Assembly: GCA_026196545.1 (NCBI GenBank)
Contig: JAPHSZ010000151.1
Location: forward strand, 1 to 35,480
Length of the DNA: 35,480 nt
From: Gammaproteobacteria bacterium
GTDB taxonomy: Bacteria > Pseudomonadota > Gammaproteobacteria > SZUA-229
Reading direction: 5' to 3'
The position numbers and the translations under genes are program-made. Shown one piece after another: positions 1 to 14,422 of the stretch. The notes below the pieces were generated by a model. That model did no database searches. It saw only the letters and a program-made list of their open reading frames with translations, and was not told where the DNA came from. Each line of letters begins with the position of its first letter. Within the stretch, counting starts at the first letter, position 1.

Positions 1-128
1 CCGTCCAGTTCAGAACCTGCTTCTGGAGTGAAGTATTCACCCTGTCTAACACCACTTGCATGCTCTTTTGCTATGAATTTCTTCTGCATTTCAAGCATTT
101 CTTTGATTTTATCTGTTTTAGCGCTCAT
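1..128 (-). CDS. Small conserved-looking protein of unknown function (C-terminus off window)
   Basis: An open frame begins with ATG at 126-128 (minus strand) and runs off the left edge, giving 42 residues that start MSAKTDKIKEMLEMQKKF. The upstream sequence offers an AAGG ribosome-binding site about 8 nt before the ATG. The visible part is a lysine/glutamate-rich amphipathic helix followed by a segment reading GVRQGEYFTPEAGSELDG. I do not recognise a named family. It is the last visible gene of a minus-strand set that includes a DsrC paralogue and a Cas6-like gene. Its own 109-bp upstream gap carries a TACCC/GGGTA dyad, so it may be transcribed separately. Whether it is complete beyond the edge cannot be seen. 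Confidence 0.65.
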   Translation of the reverse strand, partial: MSAKTDKIKEMLEMQKKFIAKEHASGVRQGEYFTPEAGSELD

Positions 129-215
129 AACTTTATACCTTTGTTGAACAACCAGCTGATGCCGGTCTTCTAAATCTGTGGCCGAATTCTAGCATCGACC
201 CGAAAACAAGCTGTA

Positions 216-230
216 TACCCCATAAGGGTA
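216..230. promoter_or_regulatory. NarL-like dyad TACCC-N5-GGGTA upstream of the leftmost gene
   Basis: The 15-mer TACCCCATAAGGGTA is a perfect 5-bp inverted repeat with a 5-nt spacer. It lies in the gap between the DsrC paralogue and the start of the leftmost minus-strand gene, about 90 bp upstream of that start. Half-sites of the form TACCC/GGGTA also occur in the dsrA upstream region. NarL heptamers follow TACYYMT, normally arranged 7-2-7, and here the spacing is one base shorter. Assignment to a NarL-family regulator is inference. Confidence 0.4.
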
Positions 231-237
231 AGATCGA

Positions 238-558
238 TTAATATCCGCCTTTGCGGGTACTTTGTGGACAACCACCGATTTTCAGGCCCTGTTTTGAGGG
301 CATACCAGGGAACAGTTCGTACATTTCCTTGGAAGAAACCTTACGGCCCCATTTTTTGCCCATGGCTTTCATGATGCCACGCTCGTTGGGCTCATCACCA
401 GCCAGAGTTTCTTCACGCACGTAGTTAACGGTATCCCAGTGCTCCTGAGTTGGTTCAATGCCTTCTTCGGCGAAGAGTTCTACTGCGATTTCTTCATTCC
501 AGTCTGTGGCGTTAACTAGATACCCGTTTTCTGTTCTTTCAACTGAATCAAGTGCCAT
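238..558 (-). CDS. DsrC/TusE/RspA-family protein lacking both conserved C-terminal cysteines
   Basis: A 106-aa protein that aligns along its length with the canonical DsrC encoded at 5664-5996. Shared features include NGYL near the N-terminus, the DW...EEIA and EHWDTVNYVRE segments, and the C-terminal ELFP...KQG region. DsrC proteins carry sulfur on two C-terminal cysteines, one penultimate and one 11 residues earlier. Here the earlier cysteine is Leu and the penultimate one is Gly. A single cysteine (Cys97) sits in a GGCPQS context, where DsrC has GLPKP. It therefore cannot form the DsrC trisulfide or disulfide in the usual way and is better placed with regulatory or non-canonical members of the superfamily. 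The start has an AAGGG site about 9 nt upstream. It lies 117 nt downstream of the Cas6-like gene on the same strand. Confidence 0.85.
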   Translation of the reverse strand: MALDSVERTENGYLVNATDWNEEIAVELFAEEGIEPTQEHWDTVNYVREETLAGDEPNERGIMKAMGKKWGRKVSSKEMYELFPGMPSKQGLKIGGCPQSTRKGGY

Positions 559-621
559 AATTCTTACCCTTTTATCTGTTTTTTAATAAAATACTTAAAA
601 ATTGGAAGCCGAATGTTAAAT

Positions 622-645
622 CAGGTAAAACCAAGTTTCCACCTG
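622..645 (-). other. Intergenic hairpin between Cas6-like gene and DsrC paralogue
   Basis: The sequence from 622 to 645 reads CAGGT ... ACCTG at its ends, with an inner AAAC ... GTTT pair and a 3-nt apex, so the minus-strand transcript could fold into a 9-10 bp hairpin with a small internal loop. It has no T-run and does not look like an intrinsic terminator. It could be an RNA-processing or stability element. Folding is inferred by eye. Confidence 0.4.
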
Positions 646-675
646 CTCAAAAGGGATATTTTTTTCACTAAAAGA

Positions 676-1380
676 CTATTTAGCACCTGAAAAATGTGAT
701 TTGTCCTCGGTTTCACCTACCGCCTTAATGCCCTTATGTGGCATGAAAATGCCGCAACCCAGGTGGCGATGCTCACCAATACCCTGTTCCTGCAAGGCAA
801 TTGAGGTTTGTTTGTCCAGGTCAGCCACCATTACACTACGCGTTTCAATGCTATTGTTCGGGGTCTGAATGGTGTGCTGGATGCCACACAGCATTTTTCG
901 CAGTTCTATATCACGTTTGGCCAGCTCATCGACTATCCACTGGGTAAACGCATCTTCATCCATGCCATCTGGCACCACAACATAGCGCGAAAACAGCGTG
1001 GCCAACGGATTGAGTGATTTTTCTGTCATCGCACCAATTTCCAGCTCATAACCGGCGATATTCACTTTTTTCCCGACCAGCGCCATCGCTTGTTCCACTC
1101 GAGGGCGCGGAACTCTCAGATTCATACGCGTACGCCGAGATAAATGCATCAATTCACCATCAGCGGGGCGCTCCCAGCCATTACCCGATGTAGCACCGTG
1201 TATTTGATGGATACCCACTTCCGGCTCATCGGCCAGCCAGGGCAGAATTTCATGCAGGGCCTGAGACAGTTCCCAGGCGTGCGTCGTTGGCAGCTGCTTG
1301 CAATTGACCTTGAATGACAGATCAATCACATTATCCGGTTGTACAAATTCAGTTTTCTTGTCTTCGTCTTGCCAAAGCAT
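676..1380 (-). CDS. Orphan Cas6/Cmx6-type (I-MYXAN-like) RNA endonuclease homologue
   Basis: The 234-aa protein begins MLWQDEDKKTEFVQPD. I chose the ATG at 1378-1380 over the longer frame because AGGA lies about 9 nt upstream and the longer start would overlap the preceding gene. It matches what I know of the Cas6/Cmx6 family: an N-terminal LSQALHEILPWL helix, GIHQIHGATSGNGW with candidate catalytic histidines, LSRRTRMNLRVP, and the C-terminal glycine-rich loop LGCGIFMPHKG typical of RAMP-fold proteins. Cas6 enzymes cleave CRISPR precursor RNA at repeat hairpins. No other cas gene and no repeat array is visible in the window. Instead the gene is 4 nt from a 63-aa small gene, upstream of a DsrC paralogue, and divergent from dsrA. 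A role in processing cellular RNA is possible but is inference. Confidence 0.75.
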   Translation of the reverse strand: MLWQDEDKKTEFVQPDNVIDLSFKVNCKQLPTTHAWELSQALHEILPWLADEPEVGIHQIHGATSGNGWERPADGELMHLSRRTRMNLRVPRPRVEQAMALVGKKVNIAGYELEIGAMTEKSLNPLATLFSRYVVVPDGMDEDAFTQWIVDELAKRDIELRKMLCGIQHTIQTPNNSIETRSVMVADLDKQTSIALQEQGIGEHRHLGCGIFMPHKGIKAVGETEDKSHFSGAK

Positions 1381-1384
1381 CGTA

Positions 1385-1576
1385 TTAGTCCTGCCTGGCG
1401 GTAAAAGCCGCTTCCAACTTGTCCTGCCAGTCATTGGGGGTATCGGGATAAGGCGGTTTTACATCCATCTGGAAGAATAATTCACCCTGTTTCGCCCTTT
1501 TGCCTAATTCCACCTTCAAATCTTCAAAAGTTTCGAGATCCTGTCCCTGCAACATCACTTCACTCAACCAAAGCAT
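1385..1576 (-). CDS. 63-aa conserved-looking protein, first gene of the divergent operon
   Basis: The protein starts MLWLSEVMLQGQDLETFEDL and ends EAAFTARQD. A GAGG site lies about 10 nt upstream of the ATG, and its stop codon is 4 nt before the Cas6-like start, so the two are almost certainly co-translated. The middle contains a GELFFQMDVKPPYPDTP segment that looks like a constrained motif rather than random coding. There are no cysteines, membrane segments or nucleotide-binding motifs. From memory, similar short proteins accompany dsr loci of other sulfur oxidisers and are sometimes labelled sulfur-relay proteins, but I cannot confirm this. No function is assigned. Confidence 0.75.
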   Translation of the reverse strand: MLWLSEVMLQGQDLETFEDLKVELGKRAKQGELFFQMDVKPPYPDTPNDWQDKLEAAFTARQD

Positions 1577-1835
1577 TCTTTATATCCTCACTCTATATAT
1601 GAGCCATGCTGTAGCATTATGCGCACACAGCAGGAACTGGCCGGAGATAATGCGATCATCCTGCCTGAAAAACAATATCACCTAAGAGCGAGCCGCCACG
1701 CGCGGTCTAGCCTAGATGAGCTACACATTATATATGGGTAGCATTGCAGAAAATAAACCCCTTTCAGCAAAAAGCAGTATCTCATTGTTTTTATTAAAAA
1801 ACATATAGAACCATACCAGAAACTCCAAAGAAACC

Positions 1836-1851
1836 TATCCCTTTGGGGGTA
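1836..1851. promoter_or_regulatory. NarL-like 7-2-7 dyad upstream of dsrA
   Basis: TATCCCTTTGGGGGTA can be read as two heptamers in inverted orientation with a 2-bp spacer. Each half matches the NarL consensus TACYYMT at 6 of 7 positions. It lies about 220 bp upstream of dsrA. A NarL-family regulator is encoded at 15963-16613 in the same cluster. Binding by that protein is inference. Confidence 0.4.
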
Positions 1852-1866
1852 AAGTCACATAAACAC

Positions 1867-1881
1867 CACCCCCCAAGGGTA
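1867..1881. promoter_or_regulatory. Second GGGTA dyad upstream of dsrA
   Basis: CACCCCCCAAGGGTA has the same layout as the 15-mer at 216-230 (YACCCC-N2-AAGGGTA), with one mismatch in the outer pair. It lies 15 bp downstream of the 1836-1851 dyad, so the two form a tandem array about 190-235 bp from dsrA. Confidence 0.35.
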
Positions 1882-2072
1882 GGGTTCTACAGCTGCCCAG
1901 CCGGCTCTAGAATCTCGTTCCATAATTTTTCTCAGGTGTAATTGTTAAAACTTTACCACTGGGGATATTGAGAACAATTTGATTTGGGAATACAATCGGT
2001 TCCCCGATTTCGACCAAAACACATGATCCGATCATATGATCAGAACAATGGCGGTTTAACAGGAGACAATCC

Positions 2073-3335
2073 ATGGCCAAAAAGATTTATGAAACACCAA
2101 TGCTGGACATCCTTGAAGAAGGACCATGGCCCAGCTTTATTTCTGGTATCAAAAAACTTCGTGATGAGCATCCTAATGAGCGCATCCAGGAAGTAACAAG
2201 CAGCCTTTTGGGCCAACTTGAGCATTCTTACGAAACTCGTAAGGGTTACTGGAAAGGCGGCACCGTATCTGTATATGGTTATGGCGGTGGTATTATTCCT
2301 CGCTTCTCAGAAGTAGCTTCAGCTTTTCCTGAGTCTAAAGAATTCCACACAGTACGTGTTCAACCACCTGCTGGTAACCACTACACAACAGCAATGCTGC
2401 GTCAGCTGGGCGATAGCTGGGAAAAACACGGTTCAGGCCTGCAAACATTCCACGGCCAGACTGGTAACATCATGTTTATCGGTACTGACACCGACGGCGT
2501 TCAAGATTTCTTCGACGAAATTAATGAATACGGCTGGGACCTTGGTGGTGCTGGCCCATGTGTACGTACTGCAATGTCATGTGTAGGTGCTTCACGTTGT
2601 GAAATGTCTAACTGTAACGAACACGGCATCCACCGCCTGTTAGTGAATAACTTCACTGATGACGTGCATCGCCCTGCTCTGCCTTACAAATTCAAATTCA
2701 AGGTTTCTGGTTGCCCTAACGACTGCCAGAACTCTATCGAACGTGCTGACATGGCTGTAATAGGTACATGGCGCGACGACATGAAAGTTGATCAGGAAGA
2801 AGTTAAAGCCTACGTTGCAGCTAAAGGCCGTCAGTACATTATTGATAATGTAACTACACGTTGCCCAACTAACGCATTGACCCTGAACGATGACGACACA
2901 CTGACTGTTAACAACAGTGACTGTGTACGTTGCATGCACTGCCTGAACGTTATGCCCAAAGCACTTCACCCTGGTGATGACAAAGGTGTAACCATCCTGA
3001 TTGGTGGTAAACGTACACTGAAGATTGGTGACTTGATGGGTACAGTTGTTATTCCATTCAAGAAGCTTGAAACAGAAGATGATTACGAAAGCCTGGTTGA
3101 ACTGGCTGAAGAAATCATTGATTTCTGGGCAGAGAATGCGCTTGAACATGAACGTTGCGGTGAAATGATCGAACGTATTGGTCTGGTTAACTTCCTCGAG
3201 GGTGTTGACTACGATCTGGAAGTTGATCCAAACATGGTCAGCAATCCACGTCAAAGCTCCTACATCCGCATGGATGGCTGGGATGACGAAGCCGTTAAAT
3301 GGTTTGAGCGTAAACAAGAAGCCGCTAACGCTTAA
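2073..3335 (+). CDS. dsrA: Dissimilatory sulfite reductase alpha subunit (oxidative type)
   Basis: A 420-aa subunit of cytoplasmic siroheme sulfite reductase, which in sulfur oxidisers runs in reverse and releases sulfite from DsrC-bound sulfane sulfur. The cysteine pattern is intact: C163, C170, C176 and C181 (CEMSNC), then C214 and C218 in GCPNDC for the siroheme-[4Fe-4S] centre. An inserted ferredoxin domain follows, with C264 and CVRCMHC at 284-290. The length is usual for the family. The start is set by AGGAGA about 9 nt before ATG and by the conserved N-terminal MAKKIYETPMLDILEEGPWP. It is the first gene of the dsr operon, followed by dsrB after 80 nt. Assignment to the oxidative type rests on its neighbours dsrEFH and dsrL. 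Confidence 0.98.
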   Translation: MAKKIYETPMLDILEEGPWPSFISGIKKLRDEHPNERIQEVTSSLLGQLEHSYETRKGYWKGGTVSVYGYGGGIIPRFSEVASAFPESKEFHTVRVQPPAGNHYTTAMLRQLGDSWEKHGSGLQTFHGQTGNIMFIGTDTDGVQDFFDEINEYGWDLGGAGPCVRTAMSCVGASRCEMSNCNEHGIHRLLVNNFTDDVHRPALPYKFKFKVSGCPNDCQNSIERADMAVIGTWRDDMKVDQEEVKAYVAAKGRQYIIDNVTTRCPTNALTLNDDDTLTVNNSDCVRCMHCLNVMPKALHPGDDKGVTILIGGKRTLKIGDLMGTVVIPFKKLETEDDYESLVELAEEIIDFWAENALEHERCGEMIERIGLVNFLEGVDYDLEVDPNMVSNPRQSSYIRMDGWDDEAVKWFERKQEAANA

Positions 3336-3373
3336 GTTTTAAGCACAAAATAACACGGAGGGGGTTAACCCCC
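3330..3373 (+). other. dsrA-dsrB intercistronic hairpins
   Basis: Two perfect inverted repeats sit between dsrA and dsrB. GCTTAA-GTT-TTAAGC (3330-3344) overlaps the dsrA stop codon, and GGGGG-TTAA-CCCCC lies at 3360-3373. Neither has a proper T-run, so they look more like mRNA-stability or processing elements than terminators. Confidence 0.5.
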
Positions 3374-3415
3374 CCTTCTAAATAACATATTTAGAAAATT
3401 ATTTGAGGAATAACC

Positions 3416-4489
3416 ATGAGTGATACACCTCGTCCACCAATTGAATCCGGATGCCCTGACGCATTCCAATACATGCACCCTGTCATGCGCAAGAACTACG
3501 GCGCATGGAAATTTCATGAGCACCCACAACCCGGTGTTCTTCGTCACGTAGCTTACAGTGGCGACGAAATCTGGACTGTACGTTGTGGTACACAGCGTAT
3601 TCTGGATGTCTTCTCTTTACGTGAACTTTGTGACATCGGCGACGAATTTGCAGATGGCTACATTCACTTTACTATTCGCAGTAACGTTGAATACATGGTA
3701 TCAGACGCGGCAAAAGTAGAGCCCCTGATCAAAGCAATCACAGACAAAGGCTACATCGTTGGTGGTACGCAGAACTCTGTTGCCATGATGTCTCATACAC
3801 AGGGCTGGTTGCACTGTGATATTCCTGGTACTGACGCATCCGGTGTTGTTAAGTCAATGATGGATGAGCTGATCGACGAATTCCGTAATGCTGACATGCC
3901 TAACCGCGTACACATTACGACTTCCTGCTGCCAGATTAACTGTGGTGGTCAGGGCGACATCGCGATTAACATCCAGCATACCAAGCCACCCAAGATCAAC
4001 CATGACCTGGTATCAAACGTTTGTGAGCGTCCTACTGTTGTAGCTCGCTGCCCCGTTGCTGCGATTCGTCCTGCAATGGTTAACGGCAAACCTACTCTGG
4101 AAGTTGATGAGAAGAAATGTATCTGTTGTGGTGCATGTTTCCCTCCTTGTCCTCCAATGCAGATCAATGATGCTGAGCATTCTAAACTGGCTGTATGGGT
4201 TGGTGGTAACCACTCTAACGCTCGTAGCAAACCTACTTTCCAGAAACTGGTTGCTGCTGGCATTCCTAACAACCCACCACGCTGGCCTGAAGCAACTGCC
4301 ATCGTTAAGCAGATTCTTAAAGCTTATAAAGAAGATGCCAAAGACTGGGAACGTATGAATGACTGGATTGAGCGCATCGGCTGGCCTCGTTTCTTCGAGA
4401 AGACTGGTCTTCCGTTCACCAAATACCATATTGATAACTGGCGCGGTGCACGTAACAGCTTGAACGCATCTACCCACATTCGTTTCTAA
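3416..4489 (+). CDS. dsrB: Dissimilatory sulfite reductase beta subunit
   Basis: A 357-aa partner of DsrA in the alpha2beta2 enzyme. The DsrB pattern is present: WLHCDIPGTD around 131-140, CCQINCGGQGD at 171-181 for the siroheme-cluster site, RCPVAAIRP near 211-219, and the ferredoxin segment KKCICCGACFPPCPP at 233-247. The start has a GAGGA site about 8 nt upstream. DsrB supplies the catalytically active siroheme in characterised enzymes. The next gene, dsrE, starts only 9 nt after the stop, which indicates a single transcript. Confidence 0.98.
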   Translation: MSDTPRPPIESGCPDAFQYMHPVMRKNYGAWKFHEHPQPGVLRHVAYSGDEIWTVRCGTQRILDVFSLRELCDIGDEFADGYIHFTIRSNVEYMVSDAAKVEPLIKAITDKGYIVGGTQNSVAMMSHTQGWLHCDIPGTDASGVVKSMMDELIDEFRNADMPNRVHITTSCCQINCGGQGDIAINIQHTKPPKINHDLVSNVCERPTVVARCPVAAIRPAMVNGKPTLEVDEKKCICCGACFPPCPPMQINDAEHSKLAVWVGGNHSNARSKPTFQKLVAAGIPNNPPRWPEATAIVKQILKAYKEDAKDWERMNDWIERIGWPRFFEKTGLPFTKYHIDNWRGARNSLNASTHIRF

Positions 4490-4498
4490 GGTGGTTCT

Positions 4499-4891
4499 GT
4501 GAAAATAGCACTCCAAATTAACGAAGGTCCATACCAGCATCAGGCAGCTGATAGTGCAATTCAGTTCACTAAAGCTGCGCTGGCTAAAGGCCACGAAATT
4601 TTCCGCGTGTTCTTCTATCACGACGGTGTGAATAACGCGACTCGTCTCGCTATTCCACCTCAGGATGACCGCAATATCACTGCAGAGTGGGTTGCTTTAC
4701 AGAAAGAACATAACCTTGATCTGGTTGTTTGTATCGCTGCTGCACAACGCCGCGGCCTGATCGACGAAGATGAAATGAATCGTCAGGGCAAAGATGCTAA
4801 CAATATTTCAGAAGGTTTCCGTATTTCAGGTTTAGGTCAGTTGATCGAAGCCGGAATTGAAGCAGACCGTCTGGTCGTATTCGGCGCATAA
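4499..4891 (+). CDS. dsrE: DsrE, sulfurtransferase subunit of DsrEFH
   Basis: A 130-aa cytoplasmic protein of the DsrE/TusD family. In sulfur oxidisers DsrE, DsrF and DsrH form a 2:2:2 hexamer that passes sulfane sulfur to DsrC. The persulfide-carrying cysteine of the family is present as Cys78 in LVVCIAAAQRRG. Translation begins with GTG at 4499-4501, preceded by AAGGTGG. The conserved N-terminus MKIALQINEGPYQHQAADS supports this start. With DsrF and DsrH it is a genomic marker of oxidative rather than reductive Dsr. Confidence 0.96.
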   Translation: MKIALQINEGPYQHQAADSAIQFTKAALAKGHEIFRVFFYHDGVNNATRLAIPPQDDRNITAEWVALQKEHNLDLVVCIAAAQRRGLIDEDEMNRQGKDANNISEGFRISGLGQLIEAGIEADRLVVFGA

Positions 4892-4902
4892 GGGGAAATA
4901 CG

Positions 4903-5304
4903 ATGGCTAAGAAATTTATGTATGTTAACCGTAAACCACCCTACGGCACTATTTATGCTCTGGAATCACTGGAAGTTGTACTGATTGGTGCCGCTTTCGA
5001 CCAGGACGTGAGCCTTGCCTTCATCGGTGATGGTGTTTACCAGCTAACCAAGGGCCAGGATACTAAAGCTATCGGACAGAAGAACTTCTCTCCTGTTTAT
5101 AGTGCACTGGGTGATTACGAAGTAACTAAAATTTACATCGAAAAAGAATCACTCGAAGAACGTGGCCTTACACTCGATGATCTTCAACACCTTGTTTGGG
5201 AAGATGAAGATGACGACTGGGCAGAAAAAGACTCTATCCGCCTGGTTAGTCGAGCTGAACTGGCTGACGTTCTTGATGATCAAGACGTATTATTGAGCTT
5301 CTAG
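4903..5304 (+). CDS. dsrF: DsrF, subunit of DsrEFH sulfurtransferase
   Basis: A 133-aa TusC/DsrF-family protein located 11 nt after dsrE, with a GGGG-rich ribosome site before ATG. The N-terminal MYVNRKPPYGTIYALESLE and the central AFIGDGVYQL match the family. The copy contains no cysteine at all, so any sulfur carriage by the hexamer must rely on DsrE Cys78 (and DsrH). An acidic stretch, EDEDDDWAEKD, lies near residue 107. Confidence 0.94.
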   Translation: MAKKFMYVNRKPPYGTIYALESLEVVLIGAAFDQDVSLAFIGDGVYQLTKGQDTKAIGQKNFSPVYSALGDYEVTKIYIEKESLEERGLTLDDLQHLVWEDEDDDWAEKDSIRLVSRAELADVLDDQDVLLSF

Positions 5305-5315
5305 GAGATAACAAA

Positions 5316-5618
5316 ATGTCATTATTACATACAGTAAATAAATCTCCGTTTGAATCAAATACTTTTGATGCCTGTTTAAATCTGGCCAAGAGTGGTTCAA
5401 CAGTACTACTGATCGAAGACGGTGTTTATGCCGCAACGACTGGTAACAGCGTTGCCGACAAAATAAAAAACACGACAGACATCAACTTCTGCGTACTGGG
5501 CCCTGATGCTCAGGCACGTGGAATCGAAGGAAAGCTAGCCGAAGGTATCAAAGTTGTTGATTACGAAGGCTTTGTTGATTTGGTAGCCGAGCACGACGCT
5601 GTGCAAGCTTGGCTTTAA
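5316..5618 (+). CDS. dsrH: DsrH, subunit of DsrEFH sulfurtransferase
   Basis: A 100-aa TusB/DsrH-family protein completing the DsrEFH hexamer. The conserved cysteine Cys20 is present in NTFDACLNLAKSG, followed by the LIEDGVYAA segment typical of the family. A TAGGAGATAAC ribosome-binding region precedes ATG, only 11 nt after the dsrF stop. A 45-nt A/T-rich spacer then leads to dsrC. Confidence 0.94.
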   Translation: MSLLHTVNKSPFESNTFDACLNLAKSGSTVLLIEDGVYAATTGNSVADKIKNTTDINFCVLGPDAQARGIEGKLAEGIKVVDYEGFVDLVAEHDAVQAWL

Positions 5619-5663
5619 TTTTTTTAATTTTTAATTTTCGTTCTCAACGAGGAGAGCATTATC

Positions 5664-5996
5664 ATGCCTATTGAAGCAAACGGTAAAACATTTGAAACTG
5701 ATGAAGAAGGTTACCTGGCTAACCTTAACGACTGGGAGCCAGCAATTGCTACAGCTATGGCTGAAGCGGAAGACTGCACATTGACTGATGAACACTGGGA
5801 CATCATCAACTTCCTTCGTGAATACTATGAAGAATACCAGATTGCACCTGCAGTACGCGTACTGACTAAAGCAGTTGGTAAAAAACTAGGTAAAGAAAAA
5901 GGCAACAGCAAATATTTGTACGAGCTGTTCCCTTATGGCCCTGGTAAACAAGCATGTAAATATGCTGGCCTACCTAAGCCAACAGGTTGTGTATAA
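5664..5996 (+). CDS. dsrC: DsrC, sulfur-carrier substrate protein of sulfite reductase
   Basis: A 110-aa sulfur carrier. The C-terminal arm reads KQACKYAGLPKPTGCV, so both redox cysteines are present: Cys98 and the penultimate Cys109, 11 apart as in true DsrC. It accepts sulfur from DsrEFH, is oxidised at DsrAB, and exchanges electrons with the DsrK subunit of the membrane complex. A strong AGGAGAG site lies about 8 nt upstream. A strong hairpin directly after the gene (6012-6040) separates it from dsrM and could let dsrABEFHC be expressed above the membrane genes. It contrasts with the cysteine-poor paralogue at 238-558. Confidence 0.98.
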   Translation: MPIEANGKTFETDEEGYLANLNDWEPAIATAMAEAEDCTLTDEHWDIINFLREYYEEYQIAPAVRVLTKAVGKKLGKEKGNSKYLYELFPYGPGKQACKYAGLPKPTGCV

Positions 5997-6011
5997 CAAC
6001 CAACCTGATCA

Positions 6012-6041
6012 CAGGGGGTCAGATACTGACCCCCTGGTTTT
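6012..6041 (+). terminator. Strong hairpin with short T-run between dsrC and dsrM
   Basis: CAGGGGGTCAG (6012-6022), loop ATA, CTGACCCCCTG (6026-6036) form a perfect 11-bp GC-rich stem followed by G and TTTT. It is placed 16 nt after the dsrC stop. It probably acts as a partial terminator or 3'-end stabiliser inside the operon. Confidence 0.75.
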
Positions 6042-6086
6042 AAAAAACTGTAACTTTTCGTAACACCTGGGCGAGACACTCTGACC

Positions 6087-6848
6087 ATGACTGTTTTAAG
6101 TATCATATATGTCGTGCTTTTCTACGTAGCCATAATTGTTTTATTTGGCGGCATTGCCAATAAAATAATGCTATACAAACGTGTGCCTGCCCCACTGAAA
6201 ATACCCGTGACACCCGCGCCTTTAACAACAGGTGGCGTTGTCTATCGCTTATTCTATGAGGTTGTTTTCTTTAACAGTCTCTTCCGTGGAAACAAATGGA
6301 CCTGGATTTTTGGCTGGATTTTCCATCTTTCTTTATTGCTGGCCTTCTTCCGACACCTGCGTTATTTGATTTCACCTGACGTTTTCTTCTGGCCTCTGAT
6401 TAATAACATGGTTGTTCAGAGCTTTGGCCATTACGCTGGCTTCACCATGTTGATAGGTCTGGCTGGTCTTTTTGCTCGCCGCATTCTGGTGGACCGGGTA
6501 CGCTATATTTCATCAGCATCTGACTACCTGATGCTGTTATTGATCATGGGCATTGCAGGCAGTGGCCTGATGATAGTTTATGCATCACACACAGATATTA
6601 TTCAATTGAAAGCGTTTATTATGGGGCTGTTCCTGTTTGACCCACAAAACCTTCCAGCTGACCCGATTTTACTGGCACACATTACTATGGTGCTATTTTT
6701 AGCGGTAATTTTCCCTGTTAGTAAATTACTACACGCGCCCGGCCTGTTCTTTGCACCAACACGCAACCAGATTGACAATCCTCGTGAGAAACGACACCTG
6801 TCAGAATGGGGTGCTGCCATTGAAGCCGAAGATGGTCGTAATAACTAA
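6087..6848 (+). CDS. dsrM: DsrM, membrane cytochrome b subunit of DsrMKJOP
   Basis: A 253-aa integral membrane protein of the NarI/DsrM diheme cytochrome b family. Five hydrophobic segments are visible, starting at residues about 3, 70, 110, 145 and 200, with histidines in or near helices (FHLSLLLAFFRHLRYL, SFGHYAGF, LLAHITMV) as candidate heme ligands. It moves electrons between the quinone pool and DsrK. The ribosome site is weak, which fits lower translation than dsrC. DsrK follows after 69 nt. Confidence 0.95.
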   Translation: MTVLSIIYVVLFYVAIIVLFGGIANKIMLYKRVPAPLKIPVTPAPLTTGGVVYRLFYEVVFFNSLFRGNKWTWIFGWIFHLSLLLAFFRHLRYLISPDVFFWPLINNMVVQSFGHYAGFTMLIGLAGLFARRILVDRVRYISSASDYLMLLLIMGIAGSGLMIVYASHTDIIQLKAFIMGLFLFDPQNLPADPILLAHITMVLFLAVIFPVSKLLHAPGLFFAPTRNQIDNPREKRHLSEWGAAIEAEDGRNN

Positions 6849-6917
6849 AATAACACTGTACTGATTTATTAGATTAAAACTGGAAGTAACTGCAACTATA
6901 AAAGCTGAGAAACAAGA

Positions 6918-8462
6918 ATGGCTGATTACGATATACCAGAAACGCACGAATTCCCCATCATTCCATCCATTATGGAAGGTTCGATGGCGCATAGCTCACC
7001 TTTTGTTGCAGGCAAAGAGTTTCAGGACGACATGGGTTTTCCCAGCGCAGAAGAAACTGGCGAGCTAATCGAAGGCTGGAAAGAAAAGTTTTTAGAGTTA
7101 TTGCAGGACAAACTTGGTAAATACCGTTCTTTACAGGTATTCATGGACACCTGTGTTAAATGTGGTGCCTGTACTGATAAATGTCACTACTTTATCGGTA
7201 CAGCCGATCCCAAGAACATGCCAGTTGCACGTCAGGATCTATTGCGCAAAGTTTACCGTCGTTACTTTACCTTTGCCGGCAAGTACTTCCCTAAACTGGT
7301 TGGCGCTGTCGATCTTACCGAAGATGTCGTCAAGGAAATGTACAGCTACTATCACCAGTGTTCTGAGTGTCGCCGCTGTGCCGTATTCTGCCCCTTCGGT
7401 ATTGATACCGCTGAAGTCACCATGGCTGCTCGCGACATTCTGGCGATGATCGGCATGGGCCAGAAATACTCCAACCAGATTATTCCCAAGGTCTTCAAAA
7501 TTGGTAACAACCTTGGCCTGCCTGAGCCTGCACTGGCCGATACGCTGGAAGGCCTTGAAGAAGAAATTGAAGACGATATCGGTGTTAAGGTTCGCTTCCC
7601 GCTCGACGAGAAAGGCGCAGATATTCTTTTGGTGACTCCATCGGCTGATTTCTTTGCTGAGCCTCACGTTGATGGCCTGATGGGCTACGCCAAAGTTTTC
7701 CACGCTGCTGGCGTTAGCTGGACACTAAGTTCAAAAGCATCAGAAGCCGCCAACTTTGGCCTGTTCATCGGTAACTATGAGTCAATGCGCCAGATTTCAC
7801 TGCGTATTCGTGATGAAGCAAAAAGACTGGGCGTAAAACGTATTATCTTCGGTGAGTGTGGTCACGCATGGCGCGTTGCTTATAATCACCTGAACACGCT
7901 GGCTGGCCCCTGGGATTTCCTCGATCAGAACTACCCGATTCCACAGCACATTCTGGAATTCACCAAAGACTGTCTTGATCGCGGCATTTTAAATATCGAC
8001 AAGTCTGAAAATGACTGGATGACACTGACATTCCACGATTCCTGTAACATCGCACGCGCATCACGCATCGGTGAAGATCCAGGTAGTCAGTTCACCACTC
8101 CTCGCCAGGTGATTCAGGCTGTCTGTAATAATTATTATGATATGGCGCCAGAAACCATTCACGACCAGACATTCTGTTGTGGTGGCGGTGGCGGCCTGTT
8201 GACCGACGACTTGATGGAATTACGCATCAAGGGTGCACAACCACGTATGGAAGCGTTGAAAAACAGCATTGCGGAAAAAGGCGTTACACATATGGCAGCC
8301 ATTTGTGCCATCTGTAAATCACAATTTACTAAGGTCCTGCCCTATTACGGCATGACTATGGATCAAATCGTCAGTGTTCACCAGCTTGTAAGCAATGCCA
8401 TCATACTTGATGGTCAGGGCGAAGAAGCTGAAGAGTCTGACGACGCAGAAGAAACTGCATAA
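6918..8462 (+). CDS. dsrK: DsrK, HdrD-like iron-sulfur subunit of DsrMKJOP
   Basis: A 514-aa cytoplasm-facing catalytic subunit related to heterodisulfide reductase HdrD. Two [4Fe-4S] ferredoxin motifs are visible: C79-C82-C85-C89 (CVKCGACTDKC) and C148-C151-C154-C158 (CSECRRCAVFC). In the C-terminal half the CCG-domain signatures appear as FGECGHAWR, HDSCNIAR, FCCGGGGG and AICAICKSQ, which bind the noncubane cluster that handles DsrC thiols or disulfides. It is expected to be the docking site of DsrC. An acidic tail ends the protein. The ATG is preceded by a modest GAG-containing region. Confidence 0.96.
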   Translation: MADYDIPETHEFPIIPSIMEGSMAHSSPFVAGKEFQDDMGFPSAEETGELIEGWKEKFLELLQDKLGKYRSLQVFMDTCVKCGACTDKCHYFIGTADPKNMPVARQDLLRKVYRRYFTFAGKYFPKLVGAVDLTEDVVKEMYSYYHQCSECRRCAVFCPFGIDTAEVTMAARDILAMIGMGQKYSNQIIPKVFKIGNNLGLPEPALADTLEGLEEEIEDDIGVKVRFPLDEKGADILLVTPSADFFAEPHVDGLMGYAKVFHAAGVSWTLSSKASEAANFGLFIGNYESMRQISLRIRDEAKRLGVKRIIFGECGHAWRVAYNHLNTLAGPWDFLDQNYPIPQHILEFTKDCLDRGILNIDKSENDWMTLTFHDSCNIARASRIGEDPGSQFTTPRQVIQAVCNNYYDMAPETIHDQTFCCGGGGGLLTDDLMELRIKGAQPRMEALKNSIAEKGVTHMAAICAICKSQFTKVLPYYGMTMDQIVSVHQLVSNAIILDGQGEEAEESDDAEETA

Positions 8463-8517
8463 ACACTTTTTATATTTGATTAATACCGGTAACGGTTGAA
8501 GCAATAGGAGAACTGGC

Positions 8518-10491
8518 ATGGCCACTTCCACAGACGACATGCAAAACGATAAGTTAACGTACAGAAGATTTGAAGATGGCAACCAGAACTGGGGTGGTTT
8601 TGCCAAGAAAATCTTCAAAGAAGATACATCTCATAAATGTCCTACTTACGTTCACCGCACACCACCGTGTCAGGGCAGCTGTCCTTCAGGTGAAGATATT
8701 CGTGGCTACCTGGATATCGTTCGTGGTATCGAAGTACCGCCAGAAGGTGTTTCTATGCAGGAATATGCCTTCCGTCGTTCAACCGATGCCAATCCTTTCC
8801 CATCCATGATGGGACGCGTTTGCCCTGCACCCTGTCAGGACGGTTGTAACCGTAACGATGTTGACGATTTCATCGGCATTAACTCGATTGAACAATACAT
8901 TGGTGATACCGCTTTCACTGAAGGCTTCAAGTTTGATAACAGCGCTGAACTGACCGGTAAAAAAGTCGCCATCATCGGTGGTGGCCCAGCTGGTATGGCT
9001 GCGGCTTATCAGCTGCGTCGCAAAGGCATCGCTTCAACTATTTTTGATGACCATGCTGAACTCGGCGGCATGATGCGTTACGGCATTCCTGGTTATCGTA
9101 CTCCACGCGACTTCCTCAACAACGAATGCCAGCGCATTATAGATATGGGCGGCATTGAAACACGCATGAACACACGTGTTGGTAAAGACATCAGCGTAGA
9201 AGACATCGAAAAAGAATTTGATTCTATTTTATGGGCACTGGGCTGTAAATCAGGTCGCGGCCTGTTCGTTGATAGCTGGAACGAAACACCTAACTGTGTC
9301 TCAGCAGTTGAATTCCTTGAGCAGTTCAACAAGGGCGACATGAAATACACTGCTAACAAGATCCTGTGTGTCGGTGGTGGTGATACCTCAATCGACGTGG
9401 TATCTGTTGCGCGCCGCATTGGTACATTAAAAGACTACAATGAAAACCCTGAAGATTCAGCCACTGGCGCAAACGCACACGGTGATGTTGATGCTTCAGC
9501 GAAAAAAGCCTGTGACAGCGTTGTTTTAACTGCCCTATTTAAACAGGAAGAAATGACAGCCGCTGAACATGAAGTTCAGGACGCGCTGATTGAAGGCGTC
9601 ACTATCATGAACGAAGTAATGCCTGTTGAAATCATTAAAGATGCCAACGGCCGCGCCACTGCACTAAAACTGGTTGACAGCAAATTTGAAAACAATGCAC
9701 CTGTTGCCGTTGAAGGTGGTAAAGAATACATCGTAGAAGCCGACCTGATTGTTTCAGCGATTGGTCAAAGCGGCGACCTTACCGGTCTTGAGGATCTGGA
9801 CAATGGTCGTGGCCTGATTGATGCAGACAACTTCTACCGCGTACCAGGTAAAGACGGTCACTTCGTCTGCGGCGATATCGTTCGCCCTCACCTGCTGACT
9901 ACGGCTATCGGCCAGGCTTCAATTGTTTCTGACACCATCGAAGCTTACCTGAGCGAATCGAAAGTTAATAAACGTCCTAAAGTAGATGTTCACCACTTTG
10001 AACTAGTTGAAAAACTGGAAGAAGCAGGTTTATCAACGGATAAATATGATGTTGCTGAACACAAAGAAGATGGCCAGCGTGGTACTGATACAAGCACTTA
10101 CGCTATTCACAACTATGAAGACCGTTCTTCACAGGAAATTATTGGAACTGATGAAATGTTCCTTGGCCACTTTGAACACGTAGCACGTCACCTGCGTGCA
10201 GTTGATGTGCCTTCTTCTGATGAAGTGCTGGGTCATTTTGCTGAACGTCAGGCGAGTTTGTCCGAAGAAGATGCTGTAGCAGAAGCTAATCGTTGCATGA
10301 GCTGCGGCATGTGTTTCGAATGTGATAACTGTGTAATTTACTGCCCACAGGATGCTGTCTTCAAAGTTAAGAAAGACAAGCACACGACTGGTCGCTATGT
10401 TGATACCGACTATAGCCGTTGCATCGGTTGTCATATTTGTTCTGATGTTTGCCCAACAGGTTACATCGATATGGCTTTGGGCGACGCCTAA
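8518..10491 (+). CDS. dsrL: DsrL, FAD/iron-sulfur NAD(P)H oxidoreductase
   Basis: A 657-aa GltD-like flavoprotein needed for oxidative Dsr in Allochromatium, where it transfers electrons from DsrAB to NAD+. N-terminal cysteine motifs (PPCQGSCPSGEDI and CPAPCQDGCNR) are followed by an FAD-binding AIIGGGPAGMAAAY segment around residue 157. A second dinucleotide fold, CVGGGDTSIDV, lies near 286. A C-terminal two-cluster ferredoxin carries CMSCGMCFECDNCVIYC and CIGCHICSDVC. AGGAGA precedes ATG. Full length for the family. Its presence directly supports sulfur oxidation rather than sulfite reduction. Confidence 0.96.
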   Translation: MATSTDDMQNDKLTYRRFEDGNQNWGGFAKKIFKEDTSHKCPTYVHRTPPCQGSCPSGEDIRGYLDIVRGIEVPPEGVSMQEYAFRRSTDANPFPSMMGRVCPAPCQDGCNRNDVDDFIGINSIEQYIGDTAFTEGFKFDNSAELTGKKVAIIGGGPAGMAAAYQLRRKGIASTIFDDHAELGGMMRYGIPGYRTPRDFLNNECQRIIDMGGIETRMNTRVGKDISVEDIEKEFDSILWALGCKSGRGLFVDSWNETPNCVSAVEFLEQFNKGDMKYTANKILCVGGGDTSIDVVSVARRIGTLKDYNENPEDSATGANAHGDVDASAKKACDSVVLTALFKQEEMTAAEHEVQDALIEGVTIMNEVMPVEIIKDANGRATALKLVDSKFENNAPVAVEGGKEYIVEADLIVSAIGQSGDLTGLEDLDNGRGLIDADNFYRVPGKDGHFVCGDIVRPHLLTTAIGQASIVSDTIEAYLSESKVNKRPKVDVHHFELVEKLEEAGLSTDKYDVAEHKEDGQRGTDTSTYAIHNYEDRSSQEIIGTDEMFLGHFEHVARHLRAVDVPSSDEVLGHFAERQASLSEEDAVAEANRCMSCGMCFECDNCVIYCPQDAVFKVKKDKHTTGRYVDTDYSRCIGCHICSDVCPTGYIDMALGDA

Positions 10492-10529
10492 TAGCTCAGA
10501 CAATAACAAGAAGTACTAAGGCTGATACT

Positions 10530-10991
10530 ATGACTCGTTTTCTGCGACTATCGCTAATCCTGACTGGATTGATCATGTTATTCCCTTCACAGGGAATGGC
10601 AGAAACACCCTTCCCCATCATTCATGAACCTGAAGGTAAAGAATGTGTTGAAGATGAAGATGATATGCGCCGAAATCACATGAACTACATACGCCACCAG
10701 CGTGATAAAACCATGCGTGAAGGCATCCGTGCTGAAAGTGAGGGCAGTTATAGTTTATCAAAGTGTATTGATTGTCATGTTGAAGCTAATGATAAAGGTG
10801 TAACACCAACTCATAATGATAAAGAGCACTTCTGTGTTGCCTGTCATGAGTATGCAGCCGTACAAATCGACTGCTTCCAGTGTCATGCTGATCGTCCGCA
10901 AAAGAACATTAAGCGTAGCTCTTCAGATCAGGCACTTAAAGATCAGTTGCAAGAAATGCTCGCAGCTAAAGACATGGGGGATGTGCAGTAA
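10530..10991 (+). CDS. dsrJ: DsrJ, periplasmic triheme cytochrome c
   Basis: A 153-aa exported cytochrome. I chose the ATG at 10530, with AAGG 8 nt upstream, because it begins a clean signal peptide (MTRFLRLSLILTGLIMLFPS, cut after GMA). The longer frame overlaps dsrL and has no such signal. Three CxxCH heme sites are present: CIDCH, CVACH and CFQCH. An extra cysteine (Cys39 of the precursor, in GKECVEDED) matches the family's unusual distal heme ligand. It is the periplasmic electron carrier of the DsrMKJOP complex. Its stop overlaps the dsrO start by one base (TAATG). Confidence 0.95.
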   Translation: MTRFLRLSLILTGLIMLFPSQGMAETPFPIIHEPEGKECVEDEDDMRRNHMNYIRHQRDKTMREGIRAESEGSYSLSKCIDCHVEANDKGVTPTHNDKEHFCVACHEYAAVQIDCFQCHADRPQKNIKRSSSDQALKDQLQEMLAAKDMGDVQ

Positions 10992-11728
10992 TGTCTGACC
11001 AGATTAATGATTCAAGACGTCAGTTCCTGTCAAAGGCCGCTATTGCCGGCAGTGTTACTATCGCACCGGGTGTTTTCCTGCACCAGACGGCTCAGGCCAA
11101 ACCTGATGAAAAAGCCGTTACCAGCGCTACCCGCTGGGGCATGCTGATCGATACTGATAAATGTTCAAAGGGTTGTACTGACTGTGTTGATGCCTGTAAC
11201 CAAGAACACGCATTGACCGGCTTTGACCGCCCGGAAACTGATGCGCAGTATATTCGCAAGGTTTCCCTGGTTGAAAAACAGACCGGCCATGAAATTTCAT
11301 TGCCTCTGATGTGTCAGCACTGTGAAAAACCACCCTGTGTTGATGTCTGTCCAACAGGTGCATCCATGAAACGCGAAGACGGTATTGTACTGGTTGATAA
11401 GCACATCTGTATTGGTTGTCGTTACTGCATGATGGCCTGCCCTTACAAGGCACGTTCATTTGTTCATGAAACCATCGAAAACCAGACACTGAGTGCGCCG
11501 CGCGGTAAAGGCACGGTTGAATCTTGCACCATGTGCACACACCGCGTTGATAAAGACGGCATTCCTGCCTGCGTTGAAGCCTGCACCGATGAAAATCACA
11601 ATGCGATGACCTTTGGCGACCTCAACGATCCAGAGAGCACAATTTCTAAAGAACTGAAGAAACACGGTGGCAAACAGATTCGCGCTGATTTACAACTCAA
11701 TACTGGCGTACGTTACCAGGGACTATAG
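10991..11728 (+). CDS. dsrO: DsrO, periplasmic Tat-exported iron-sulfur protein
   Basis: A 245-aa ferredoxin-like subunit of DsrMKJOP. The N-terminus carries a twin-arginine signal, DSRRQFLSKAAIAG, then a hydrophobic stretch ending in AQA. Four cysteine clusters follow: CSKGCTDCVDAC, CQHCEKPPCVDVC, CIGCRYCMMAC and the split CTMC ... CVEAC, consistent with several [4Fe-4S] clusters as in PhsB/NrfC proteins. It pairs with the NrfD-like DsrP encoded next. One-base overlap with dsrJ indicates coupled translation. Confidence 0.95.
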   Translation: MSDQINDSRRQFLSKAAIAGSVTIAPGVFLHQTAQAKPDEKAVTSATRWGMLIDTDKCSKGCTDCVDACNQEHALTGFDRPETDAQYIRKVSLVEKQTGHEISLPLMCQHCEKPPCVDVCPTGASMKREDGIVLVDKHICIGCRYCMMACPYKARSFVHETIENQTLSAPRGKGTVESCTMCTHRVDKDGIPACVEACTDENHNAMTFGDLNDPESTISKELKKHGGKQIRADLQLNTGVRYQGL

Positions 11729-11766
11729 GTCCATCACCTTTAAATCATCAAAGAGTCTAGAAAAAG

Positions 11767-12975
11767 ATGAAAAAGATCGAATACACAAGAATTAAAGGTC
11801 ACAGTCTCGCTTACTACGGCTTACTGGCAGGCCTGGGTTTCATTATATTGCTTGGCCTGCTCGCTACCTGGTATATGGAGCATAATGGGCATTATGTTAC
11901 CGGCATGAGCAACCAGATCGTATGGGGCATGCCTCATGTATTTGCTATTTTCCTGATCGTTGCAGCCTCGGGTGCTTTAAACGTTGCTTCCATTGCTTCG
12001 GTATTTGGTAAAAAAATCTACGATCCCCTGTCGCGTCTATCTGCGCTACTGTCCATTGCCCTACTTGCTGGTGGCCTGGTGGTTTTATTACTGGATTTAG
12101 GCCGACCTGACCGCCTGATCGTTGCTATTACCACTTATAACTTCAAATCTATTTTTGCCTGGAACATTATTCTCTACACAGGCTTCTTTGCAATTGTTGG
12201 TGCCTATATCTGGATGATGATGGATCACAATATGCACAAATATAAAAAGAAAGTGGGTCTGACTGCCTTTGTCTGGCGTCTTATCCTGACCACTGGTACT
12301 GGTTCTATCTTCGGCTTTCTGGTTGCACGCTCTGCTTATGATGCAGCACTGATGGCACCAATGTTTATCATCATGTCTTTTGCTTTTGGTCTGGCTATCT
12401 TTATTCTGGTACTGATGGCAGCCTACAACTGGACAGGCCGTGAACTGGGTGATGCCGTTATTGCCCGCCTTAGAAGTCTGCTGGGCGTGTTTGTTGCTGC
12501 TGTACTCTACTTCACTGCGGTTTATCACTTAACTAATCTGTACATCACTGAGCACCACGGCGTTGAGCAGTTTATCCTGCGCGATGGCGGTATCTACACC
12601 AATTTGTTCTGGTTTGGTCAGGTCCTGATTGGCGGTCTTTTACCACTGGCATTAATCTATGCACCTGGCGTTAAGACATGCAGAAAAACTTTAGCTCTAA
12701 TCAGCACCATGATTATCGTTGGTGGTATGTGTCAAATCTACGTTATCGTCATCGGTGGTCAGGCTTATCCTATGGAACTGTTCCCAGGTTACGAAGTTAG
12801 CAGCACATTCTTTGATGGCATGGTAAACAGTTACTCACCTACTCTTCCAGAAATCATTCTTGGCTTGAGCGGTATGGCAGTTTCAATATTACTGGTCAGT
12901 TTTGCAATTAAAGCGTTGAGCTTCCTGCCTACCTCGCTGGCAGATTCTATTGCTGATCCACACGCAGCAAAATAA
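11767..12975 (+). CDS. dsrP: DsrP, NrfD/PsrC-type membrane subunit
   Basis: A 402-aa quinone-interacting membrane protein with ten hydrophobic segments spread through the chain, the NrfD-family layout. Together with DsrO and DsrJ it forms the periplasm-facing part of the DsrMKJOP complex. The start MKKIEYTRIKGHSLAYYG sits 38 nt after dsrO with only a poor A-rich ribosome site. Thirteen nt after the stop begins a strong hairpin (12987-13014). Confidence 0.94.
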   Translation: MKKIEYTRIKGHSLAYYGLLAGLGFIILLGLLATWYMEHNGHYVTGMSNQIVWGMPHVFAIFLIVAASGALNVASIASVFGKKIYDPLSRLSALLSIALLAGGLVVLLLDLGRPDRLIVAITTYNFKSIFAWNIILYTGFFAIVGAYIWMMMDHNMHKYKKKVGLTAFVWRLILTTGTGSIFGFLVARSAYDAALMAPMFIIMSFAFGLAIFILVLMAAYNWTGRELGDAVIARLRSLLGVFVAAVLYFTAVYHLTNLYITEHHGVEQFILRDGGIYTNLFWFGQVLIGGLLPLALIYAPGVKTCRKTLALISTMIIVGGMCQIYVIVIGGQAYPMELFPGYEVSSTFFDGMVNSYSPTLPEIILGLSGMAVSILLVSFAIKALSFLPTSLADSIADPHAAK

Positions 12976-12986
12976 ATTTCATTACC

Positions 12987-13014
12987 ATTGGCTCAGGTCT
13001 ATGCCTGAGCCAAT
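12987..13014 (+). terminator. 11-bp hairpin between dsrP and dsrN, no T-run
   Basis: ATTGGCTCAGG (12987-12997), loop TCTATG, CCTGAGCCAAT (13004-13014) is a perfect stem. The downstream sequence is ATTCAC, so it is not a standard intrinsic terminator. It may be an mRNA 3'-end stabiliser or an attenuator in front of dsrN. Confidence 0.5.
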
Positions 13015-13039
13015 ATTCACAAACGACCGATGGTGAAAA

Positions 13040-14422
13040 ATGAGTCGTTTCTTCATTTCAGCAGCCCATAAGTCCTCTGGCAAAACCACTGTCAGCATCG
13101 GCCTGTGCGCGGCCCTGAGTGAAAAAGGAAAACTCGTCCAGCCCTTTAAAAAAGGCCCCGACTACATCGACCCGCAATGGCTAGCCCGTGCCAGCAGTTT
13201 TAATGCAGAATCACGTCATTGTTTTAATCTCGATTTTTACACCATGACACCGGATGAGATCCTGGAAACTATCGCCCTGCACTCAGCCGATGCTGATATC
13301 TCACTCATAGAAGGCAACAAAGGTCTTTACGATGGTCTCGATCTTGATGGCAGCAACAGCAACGCAGCACTGGCCAAGCTGACACAAACACCTATTATTC
13401 TGGTGCTCGACACCCGCGGCGTCACCCGAGGTGTCGCACCGCTCATCCTTGGCTATCAATCATTCGATAATGATATTAATATCCAGGGTGTTATTCTCAA
13501 CCAGCTGGGTGGTTCAAGGCATGAAGAAAAACTAAGACGCGTCATCGAACACTATACCGATGTACAGGTTGTCGGTGCGATACACAAGGACAAACGTTTT
13601 GATATCGATGAACGCCACCTTGGCCTGCTGCCCAGCCATGAAGACCCGCAATCTAACGAAAAAATTGAATTACTGAAACGGGCCATTATCGATCAGGTCG
13701 ATCTTGATAGAATCATTGGGATCGCAAATGATGCTCCAAAATTAGAAATCCAGCCATCAGGCATCCCTGTACCAGCAGCAAACAAAGATATCCGCATTGG
13801 CATCGTCCACAATACCGCCTTCTCTTTCTATTATCCTGATGATTTAATCTCTCTCGAACAGGCTGGTGCTGAACTGGTTTATATCGATAATATAACAGAC
13901 AGCAAGCTCCCTGAAATTGATGGTTTATTTATCGGCGGTGGTTTTCCGGAAACCCATTTACAGGAACTCGAAGCCAATCAGTCAATAAGACAGGACATCC
14001 ATCAGGCCATTGAAAATGGCCTGCCGGTATATGCAGAATGCGGCGGCCTGATGTATCTGGCCCGTACAATAAAATGGCAAGACCAGAAAAACAACATGGT
14101 TGGCAGCATACCCGGAGACATTATAATGGAGGACAAGCCACAGGGTCGCGGTTATGTTCAACTGAAGGAAACAGCCGAAGGATTATGGCCGTTGAGGTCA
14201 GATGGCATCATTTCAGCCCACGAATTTCATTATTCACGTTTTGAAAATCTTGATAAAAATGCTAGATTCGCCTTTGAAGTGGTACGCGGTACCGGCATTA
14301 ACGGTAAGAATGACGGCTATATCTACAAAAATCTGCTGGCCTGTTACACACACCAGCGTGGCACCAGCAAAAATCGCTGGACCCAGCGTTTTGTCGATTT
14401 TATCCGCCAACAAAAAACATAA
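13040..14422 (+). CDS. dsrN: DsrN, CobB-like glutamine-dependent siroheme amidase
   Basis: A 460-aa member of the cobyrinic acid a,c-diamide synthase family. DsrN is thought to amidate siroheme for DsrAB. The N-terminal P-loop AAHKSSGKTT (residues 8-17) and DTRGVTRG belong to the ATP-dependent synthase domain. The C-terminal half is a class-I glutaminase with the nucleophile Cys334 in YAECGGLMYL and a downstream ISAHEFHYSRFE histidine. Length is normal. A GGTG site precedes ATG. Its position after dsrP is the standard dsr order. Confidence 0.94.
   Translation: MSRFFISAAHKSSGKTTVSIGLCAALSEKGKLVQPFKKGPDYIDPQWLARASSFNAESRHCFNLDFYTMTPDEILETIALHSADADISLIEGNKGLYDGLDLDGSNSNAALAKLTQTPIILVLDTRGVTRGVAPLILGYQSFDNDINIQGVILNQLGGSRHEEKLRRVIEHYTDVQVVGAIHKDKRFDIDERHLGLLPSHEDPQSNEKIELLKRAIIDQVDLDRIIGIANDAPKLEIQPSGIPVPAANKDIRIGIVHNTAFSFYYPDDLISLEQAGAELVYIDNITDSKLPEIDGLFIGGGFPETHLQELEANQSIRQDIHQAIENGLPVYAECGGLMYLARTIKWQDQKNNMVGSIPGDIIMEDKPQGRGYVQLKETAEGLWPLRSDGIISAHEFHYSRFENLDKNARFAFEVVRGTGINGKNDGYIYKNLLACYTHQRGTSKNRWTQRFVDFIRQQKT

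Follow-up and report, generated by a model that had tools for sequence, protein, structure and literature searches.

A Cas6-family protein encoded in a conserved operon facing dsrAB in Gammaproteobacteria

The Cas6-family gene and its product

The window, meaning the whole stretch of 35,480 nucleotides analyzed here, carries a short series of reverse-strand genes that is divergent from dsrA (Table 1). The earlier note had placed a Cas6-like gene next to a DsrC paralogue (PF04358) and opposite dsrA, and this arrangement was confirmed. It had overlooked a 63-aa open reading frame (sp63), the start of a 67-aa one and a third neighbor seen in relatives, the tauD-like gene dsrQ, which lies between the operon and dsrA; no remnant of dsrQ was found in the window, at the place where close relatives have the gene. 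The Cas6-like frame is open over positions 676-1434 (-), and the ATG at 1380, a start common to the homologues, yields a protein of 234 aa. The intergenic region that separates the divergent genes contains a perfect 12-base palindrome (GATCATATGATC, positions 2030-2041), a possible regulator site some 30 bases upstream of dsrA. No Rfam match was found in positions 1-14000 of the window.

Table 1. Features of the window discussed in the text
Feature	Position	Strand	Remarks
67-aa conserved protein (C9), start only	1..128	-	cut by window (contig) end
DsrC/TusE-family paralogue	238..558	-	PF04358, TIGR03342; tail KIGGCPQSTRKGGY
Cas6-family protein, 234 aa (PF09559/TIGR02807)	676..1380	-	profile, PDB and model matches
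sp63, 63-aa protein	1385..1576	-	conserved, upstream of Cas6-like gene
dsrA	2073..3335	+	divergent from operon
G-C-rich hairpin, dsrA-dsrB gap	3357..3375	+	candidate RNA substrate
dsrB	3416..4489	+	part of dsrAB
True dsrC	5664..5996	+	ends KQACKYAGLPKPTGCV, both redox Cys
G-C-rich hairpin, dsrC-dsrM gap	6012..6036	+	candidate RNA substrate

The product of 676-1380 belongs beyond doubt to the Cas6 protein family, because it is matched by the family profiles, by PDB sequences and by solved structures. The Cas6-type motifs reported by the earlier note, GIHQIHGATSGNGW at residues 56-69 and LGCGIFMPHKG, are indeed present. The HMM search proposed there gave 139.9 bits (1e-40) with TIGR02807 (the NCBIfam equivalog cas6_cmx6), above the cut-off of 98.85, and 211.7 bits (1.2e-62) with PF09559, while the PADLOC Cas6 profile matched at 2.5e-61. 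The sole PDB match found by sequence was 8fcj, the Cas6 of a type I-B CRISPR-associated transposon (CAST), at 3e-12, or 2e-26 with a profile of 61 homologues. These matches rule out a chance resemblance of the motifs. The structure prediction, likewise proposed beforehand, gave an AlphaFold2 model with a pLDDT of 91, and its top structural matches were 8fcj (Z 24.9, rmsd 2.1, 198 residues) and 8fcu (Z 24.5), followed by Pyrococcus and other Cas6 proteins (Z 15-17). The double RRM-like RAMP fold and the C-terminal glycine-rich loop, by which membership was judged, are both present.

The landmarks of the protein are H34, H58 (the putative catalytic His), SGNGWxRP, R83, R89 and the glycine-rich loop G200xGxxRxxGCGxFxPHK. 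Over 61 diverse members, the mean column identity is 48%, with 10 invariant columns. H34 is kept in 174/176 unique homologues, H58 in 169/176 (96%), R83 in 175/176 and R89 in 176/176, and GNGW is almost always present. The protein resembles the type I-MYXAN/I-B Cas6 (TIGR02807, PF09559; 8fcj) in fold, glycine-rich loop and length, but it is 24% identical to 8fcj, its gene lies outside any CRISPR locus and it falls in a separate clade. A tree built from 47 sequences had a branch with 100/100 support between all 7 CRISPR-linked and all 40 dsr-type sequences, the CRISPR-linked set being small, mostly cyanobacterial and including one member (Gloeobacter) linked to CRISPR by annotation only. The SGNGWxRP stretch is found in the dsr-type proteins and is absent from their CRISPR-linked relatives. 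The position of H58 is occupied by His in the CAST Cas6 (8fcj) and by N, Q, A or L in the cyanobacterial CRISPR-linked relatives.

H58 is probably the counterpart of Pyrococcus His46, because its place within the N-terminal domain corresponds and because its distance from the preceding Asn-His motif, 24 residues, equals that in the Pyrococcus enzyme. The catalytic residues of Pyrococcus furiosus Cas6 (3i4h, 3pkm), which has a similar fold (Z about 15), are Tyr31, His46 and Lys52 (PMC3652601); equivalents of Tyr31 and Lys52 are not evident in the Cas6-like protein, and the gene context differs. H58 is replaced by Q, P, Y or F in six members of the dsr-linked clade, with W3, H34, the GNGW motif, R83 and R89 in place, and cleavage may therefore be dispensable. 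Such a loss is compatible with a role on RNA, since the active-site His is not universal in Cas6, some Cas6 proteins cut without it, and binding may be as important as cutting (PMC3652601).

Two of the six copies with a replaced H58 come from small genomes in which the gene is apart from dsr. In these (L282 and L283, near 7944-8645; genomes of 1.4-1.6 Mb), a lone Cas6-like gene with Phe in place of His58 stands beside the genes for RNase III (rnc) and era, and dsr is elsewhere. Other copies apart from dsr adjoin an RlmB-type rRNA methyltransferase gene (L203:7956-8648(-)) or a sulfur transport (PF04143) gene (L227:7932-8648(+)).

A conserved operon opposite dsrAB

The survey of gene neighborhoods that the earlier note had called for revealed a conserved operon facing dsrAB, in the order dsrQ (tauD-like), sp63, a protein of about 235 aa in part of the loci, the Cas6-like protein, a DsrC paralogue ending in RKGGY and a 67-aa protein. 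Of 100 loci from a class-wide sample, selected independently of similarity to the window, 85 contained sp63, 83 the DsrC paralogue, 71 the tauD-like gene and 60 the 67-aa gene, and 72 had dsrAB at most 8 kb away; these counts are lower bounds, because a contig ends within 3 kb of the Cas6-like gene in 25 of the loci. The strand of dsrAB was opposite to that of the operon in 72/72 loci. The term "orphan" used in the earlier note thus holds in the CRISPR sense and fails in the sense of a lone gene, given these constant partners.

The tauD-like gene upstream of dsr, called dsrQ by Lenk et al. (2012; cited in PMC7596348), comes first in the operon of relatives and is divergent from dsr; PMC7596348 mentions neither Cas6 nor CRISPR. 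Its product conserves H115, D117 and H257 at the HxD...H iron-ligand places. In sp63, W50, E55, F58, D38, P41 and P47 are nearly invariant; it has no Pfam relative, and its predicted structure (pLDDT 86) had no PDB match at E under 1. The protein of about 235 aa, which has no Pfam family, is encoded after sp63 and before the Cas6-like gene in 51 loci (e.g., L100:7665-8348(+)), and the source genome has a homologue on another contig (G000:C15:4770-5384(-), locus L340).

The DsrC paralogue of the window is a member of the DsrC/TusE family (TIGR03342, 73 bits; cut-off 53.5), but it lacks both redox Cys of DsrC and ends in RKGGY, an ending that is 97-99% conserved. Matches to an RKGGY DNA pattern were translated because chance matches occur beside true ones. 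A new Cys appears in only some of the paralogues; that in the GGCP motif of the window copy is not conserved, its relatives having GGLP, AGLP or GGIP. Given the two missing Cys, the sporadic new one and the RKGGY end, the paralogue is unlikely to carry sulfur in the manner of DsrC, as far as its sequence indicates.

A gene for a PKHD-type Fe(II) oxygenase (L035:6438-7112(+) and relatives) faces the far end of the operon in many loci; a match was obtained in 87/111 loci with a profile that also catches other open reading frames.

Distribution with dsrA and with CRISPR systems

An even sample of 369 gammaproteobacterial genomes contained 118 with PF09559 and 119 in which dsrA was matched strongly (E of 1e-30 or below). 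Both were present in 111 genomes, the Cas6-like gene alone in 7, dsrA alone in 8 and neither in 243 (odds ratio 482, Fisher p 7e-75); these figures take no account of relatedness among the genomes, but the carriers come from 87 genera of many families. In the seven genomes with the Cas6-like gene alone, either the contig ends close to the gene on its dsr side or a dsrAB fragment is present, and 3/8 of those with dsrA alone are at least 90% complete. The exceptions are thus mostly technical. Physical linkage to dsr and phyletic co-occurrence with dsrA, two marks of a member of the reverse Dsr (rDsr) set, were both found, and a Cas6 clade within a conserved operon is present in nearly every rDsr-bearing gammaproteobacterium sampled.

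Outside the Gammaproteobacteria, no genome of a wider phylum sample had PF09559, though 45 had dsrA. Twenty of these dsrA loci were opened (L284-L303); most are of a different kind, dsrAB-dsrL without nearby dsrEFH, dsrC or dsrMK. Two canonical rDsr loci among them (L295 and L300) have the tauD-like gene and sp63 opposite dsrA, without the Cas6-like gene, and their genomes carry the RKGGY DsrC paralogue. The Cas6-like gene therefore seems to have joined, in Gammaproteobacteria, a dsr-linked set of genes that is older. Since it is missing from these two genomes and from three near-complete gammaproteobacterial genomes with dsrA, rDsr can run without it. In L295 (4384-7683(-)), dsrQ and sp63 are followed by a siroheme synthase gene (CysG-type) instead of the Cas6-like gene.

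No repeat array and no other cas gene was found in the window. The earlier note had said as much for its 35 kb, and its statement was borne out by the array search. In 211 loci of homologues, a simple array finder that detected the array of a control locus returned none. A PADLOC check of the neighbors of four copies apart from dsr gave no cas gene either. Indeed, no PF09559 copy of the class sample whose neighborhood was read lay in a CRISPR locus; the label "type I-MYXAN Cas6/Cmx6" in Gammaproteobacteria is therefore probably wrong as to function. An orphan member without CRISPR in Thiobacillus denitrificans is reportedly mentioned in the TIGR02807 documentation.

A genome-wide check for Cas1, in the direction of the CRISPR search advised by the earlier note, found a single copy in the source genome (2.67 Mb, 97% complete), inside a type II-C Cas9-Cas1-Cas2 locus. 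This locus (L065, contig C107) encodes a Cas9 of 1021 aa, Cas1 and Cas2 and reaches the contig end. Type II-C systems use a tracrRNA and RNase III, not Cas6. No PF10040 Cas6, no PF01905 Cas7/DevR and no second PF09559 were found in the source genome; as regards a class 1 effector for the Cas6-like protein, Cas1 led to the type II-C locus alone and PF01905 was absent from this 97% complete assembly. The two findings that the earlier note would have taken against its reading were a lack of matches to Cas6 models and a nearby type I-MYXAN array whose cas operon lacks its own Cas6; the models do match, and no such array was seen. Across the 369 genomes, the Cas6-like gene was only weakly associated with Cas1 (51 with both, 67 with the Cas6-like gene alone, 85 with Cas1 alone, 166 with neither; p 0.08). 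A phage-borne origin was rejected for lack of any match among 50,697 phage records. The plasmid matches to the gene were cyanobacterial, with cas3 adjoining in 5/6 regions opened.

Possible roles of the Cas6-like protein

Since the Cas6-like gene tracks dsr and not CRISPR, a role in sulfur oxidation, on cellular RNA or as a scaffold with an RNA-binding fold, is most likely, and not one in immunity. CRISPR-based explanations fare poorly. The protein could mature in trans the CRISPR RNA of arrays elsewhere in the genome, as its passing of the TIGR02807 equivalog cut-off and the presence of some Cas1 in 51/118 carriers might suggest; 67/118 carriers have no Cas1 match, however, the gene is distributed independently of Cas1, no copy has arrays nearby and the source genome offers type II-C Cas9/Cas1/Cas2 without PF01905, which makes such a role very improbable. 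Because cas loci also exist in isolation in bacteria (PMC5294841), the gene could be left over from a CRISPR locus that has since been lost, and be drifting next to dsr. This is refuted for practical purposes, and we give it hardly any weight, by the strong conservation described above for the 61 members and by a gene order that is constant across many families.

The intergenic regions of the dsr genes were considered as a source of RNA substrates. Compared with shuffled sequences, the dsrA-dsrB and dsrC-dsrM gaps fold strongly (mean z -2.37 and -2.89, below -2 in 60% and 72%, respectively; -2.18 and -2.35 in the window itself), and most other gaps of the two operons do not. The stems vary in sequence among genomes and yet recur at the same place, which suggests that they are under selection for structure. 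However, the hairpins are also present in rDsr loci lacking the Cas6-like gene (e.g., L295, L304, L305 and L307, from a comparison set of four to six genomes) and therefore do not single out the dsr transcript as the substrate; in addition, half of random 85-nt windows of dsr loci reach -12 kcal/mol. A specific link between the hairpins and the Cas6-like protein was accordingly not established. They may be 3' stabilizers or weak terminators that preserve the abundant dsrAB and dsrC messages. It is doubtful that the RNA acted on is a dsr messenger. The same doubt applies to a fuller scheme in which a domesticated Cas6 would bind or cut the two hairpins and so determine how much DsrAB, DsrC and membrane complex are made relative to one another, while the Cys-less DsrC paralogue would sense the sulfur load. 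Thus, the non-CRISPR role tied to dsr envisaged by the earlier note stood, the gene being nearly one-to-one with dsrA and not with Cas1 in an operon that faces dsrAB, and the processing of an RNA, perhaps from the dsr locus, is a plausible proposal; its reading was in this sense partly supported.

Two other explanations keep the link to sulfur oxidation. The Cas6 fold might be retained purely as a platform for protein binding or assembly (e.g., of DsrAB, for siroheme loading or with the DsrC paralogue), without any function on RNA. The scattered losses of His58 amid otherwise intact landmarks, the siroheme synthase gene after dsrQ-sp63 in one non-gammaproteobacterial genome and the families of the partners, which include a TauD-like oxygenase, small proteins and the Cys-less DsrC paralogue but no RNA enzyme, would fit this; the protein nevertheless keeps its glycine-rich loop and basic residues of the sort seen in RNA-binding Cas6 proteins, His58 is kept in nearly all homologues, and we regard a pure scaffold as possible, on the less probable side. 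Alternatively, the protein could bind a tRNA or its precursor together with its TusE/DsrC-like partner and couple tRNA thiolation, or the use of glutamyl-tRNA for siroheme supply, to sulfur oxidation. TusE, a fellow member of the TIGR03342 family, takes part in tRNA thiolation in E. coli, but the paralogue lacks its sulfur-carrying Cys and the operon showed no genes for tRNA thiolation, so that a tRNA-linked role seems improbable.

On balance, the best explanation is a non-CRISPR, Cas6-family component of the gammaproteobacterial rDsr set that likely works on cellular RNA. The non-CRISPR, rDsr-linked role is highly probable, and action on RNA is fairly probable; RNA processing as such is plausible. 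As a RAMP protein with a double RRM-like fold working outside CRISPR, and as a standing part of this gene set, the protein would bind structured cellular RNA and, where His58 is present, may cut it. In concert with its operon partners, the Cys-less DsrC paralogue and small proteins, it could adjust the expression or the assembly of the Dsr enzymes. We infer that the operon products are partners in one complex, of which a shared operon and co-occurrence are not by themselves proof.

No report joining cas6 and dsr was found in the open-access literature, most subscription papers lying outside this search. A non-CRISPR Cas6 clade tied to reverse Dsr thus appears to be undescribed, and dsrQ appears to be the only known gene of the operon. 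The almost perfect link of this clade to an energy pathway, together with the absence of one to CRISPR, suggests that an RNA-processing fold known from CRISPR has a housekeeping function in the metabolism of a whole bacterial class. With this operon, the rDsr set of sulfur oxidizers, which are important for sulfur cycling in the sea and in sediments, gains several unstudied genes, and the operon offers a direct route to asking what the Cas6 fold does without CRISPR.
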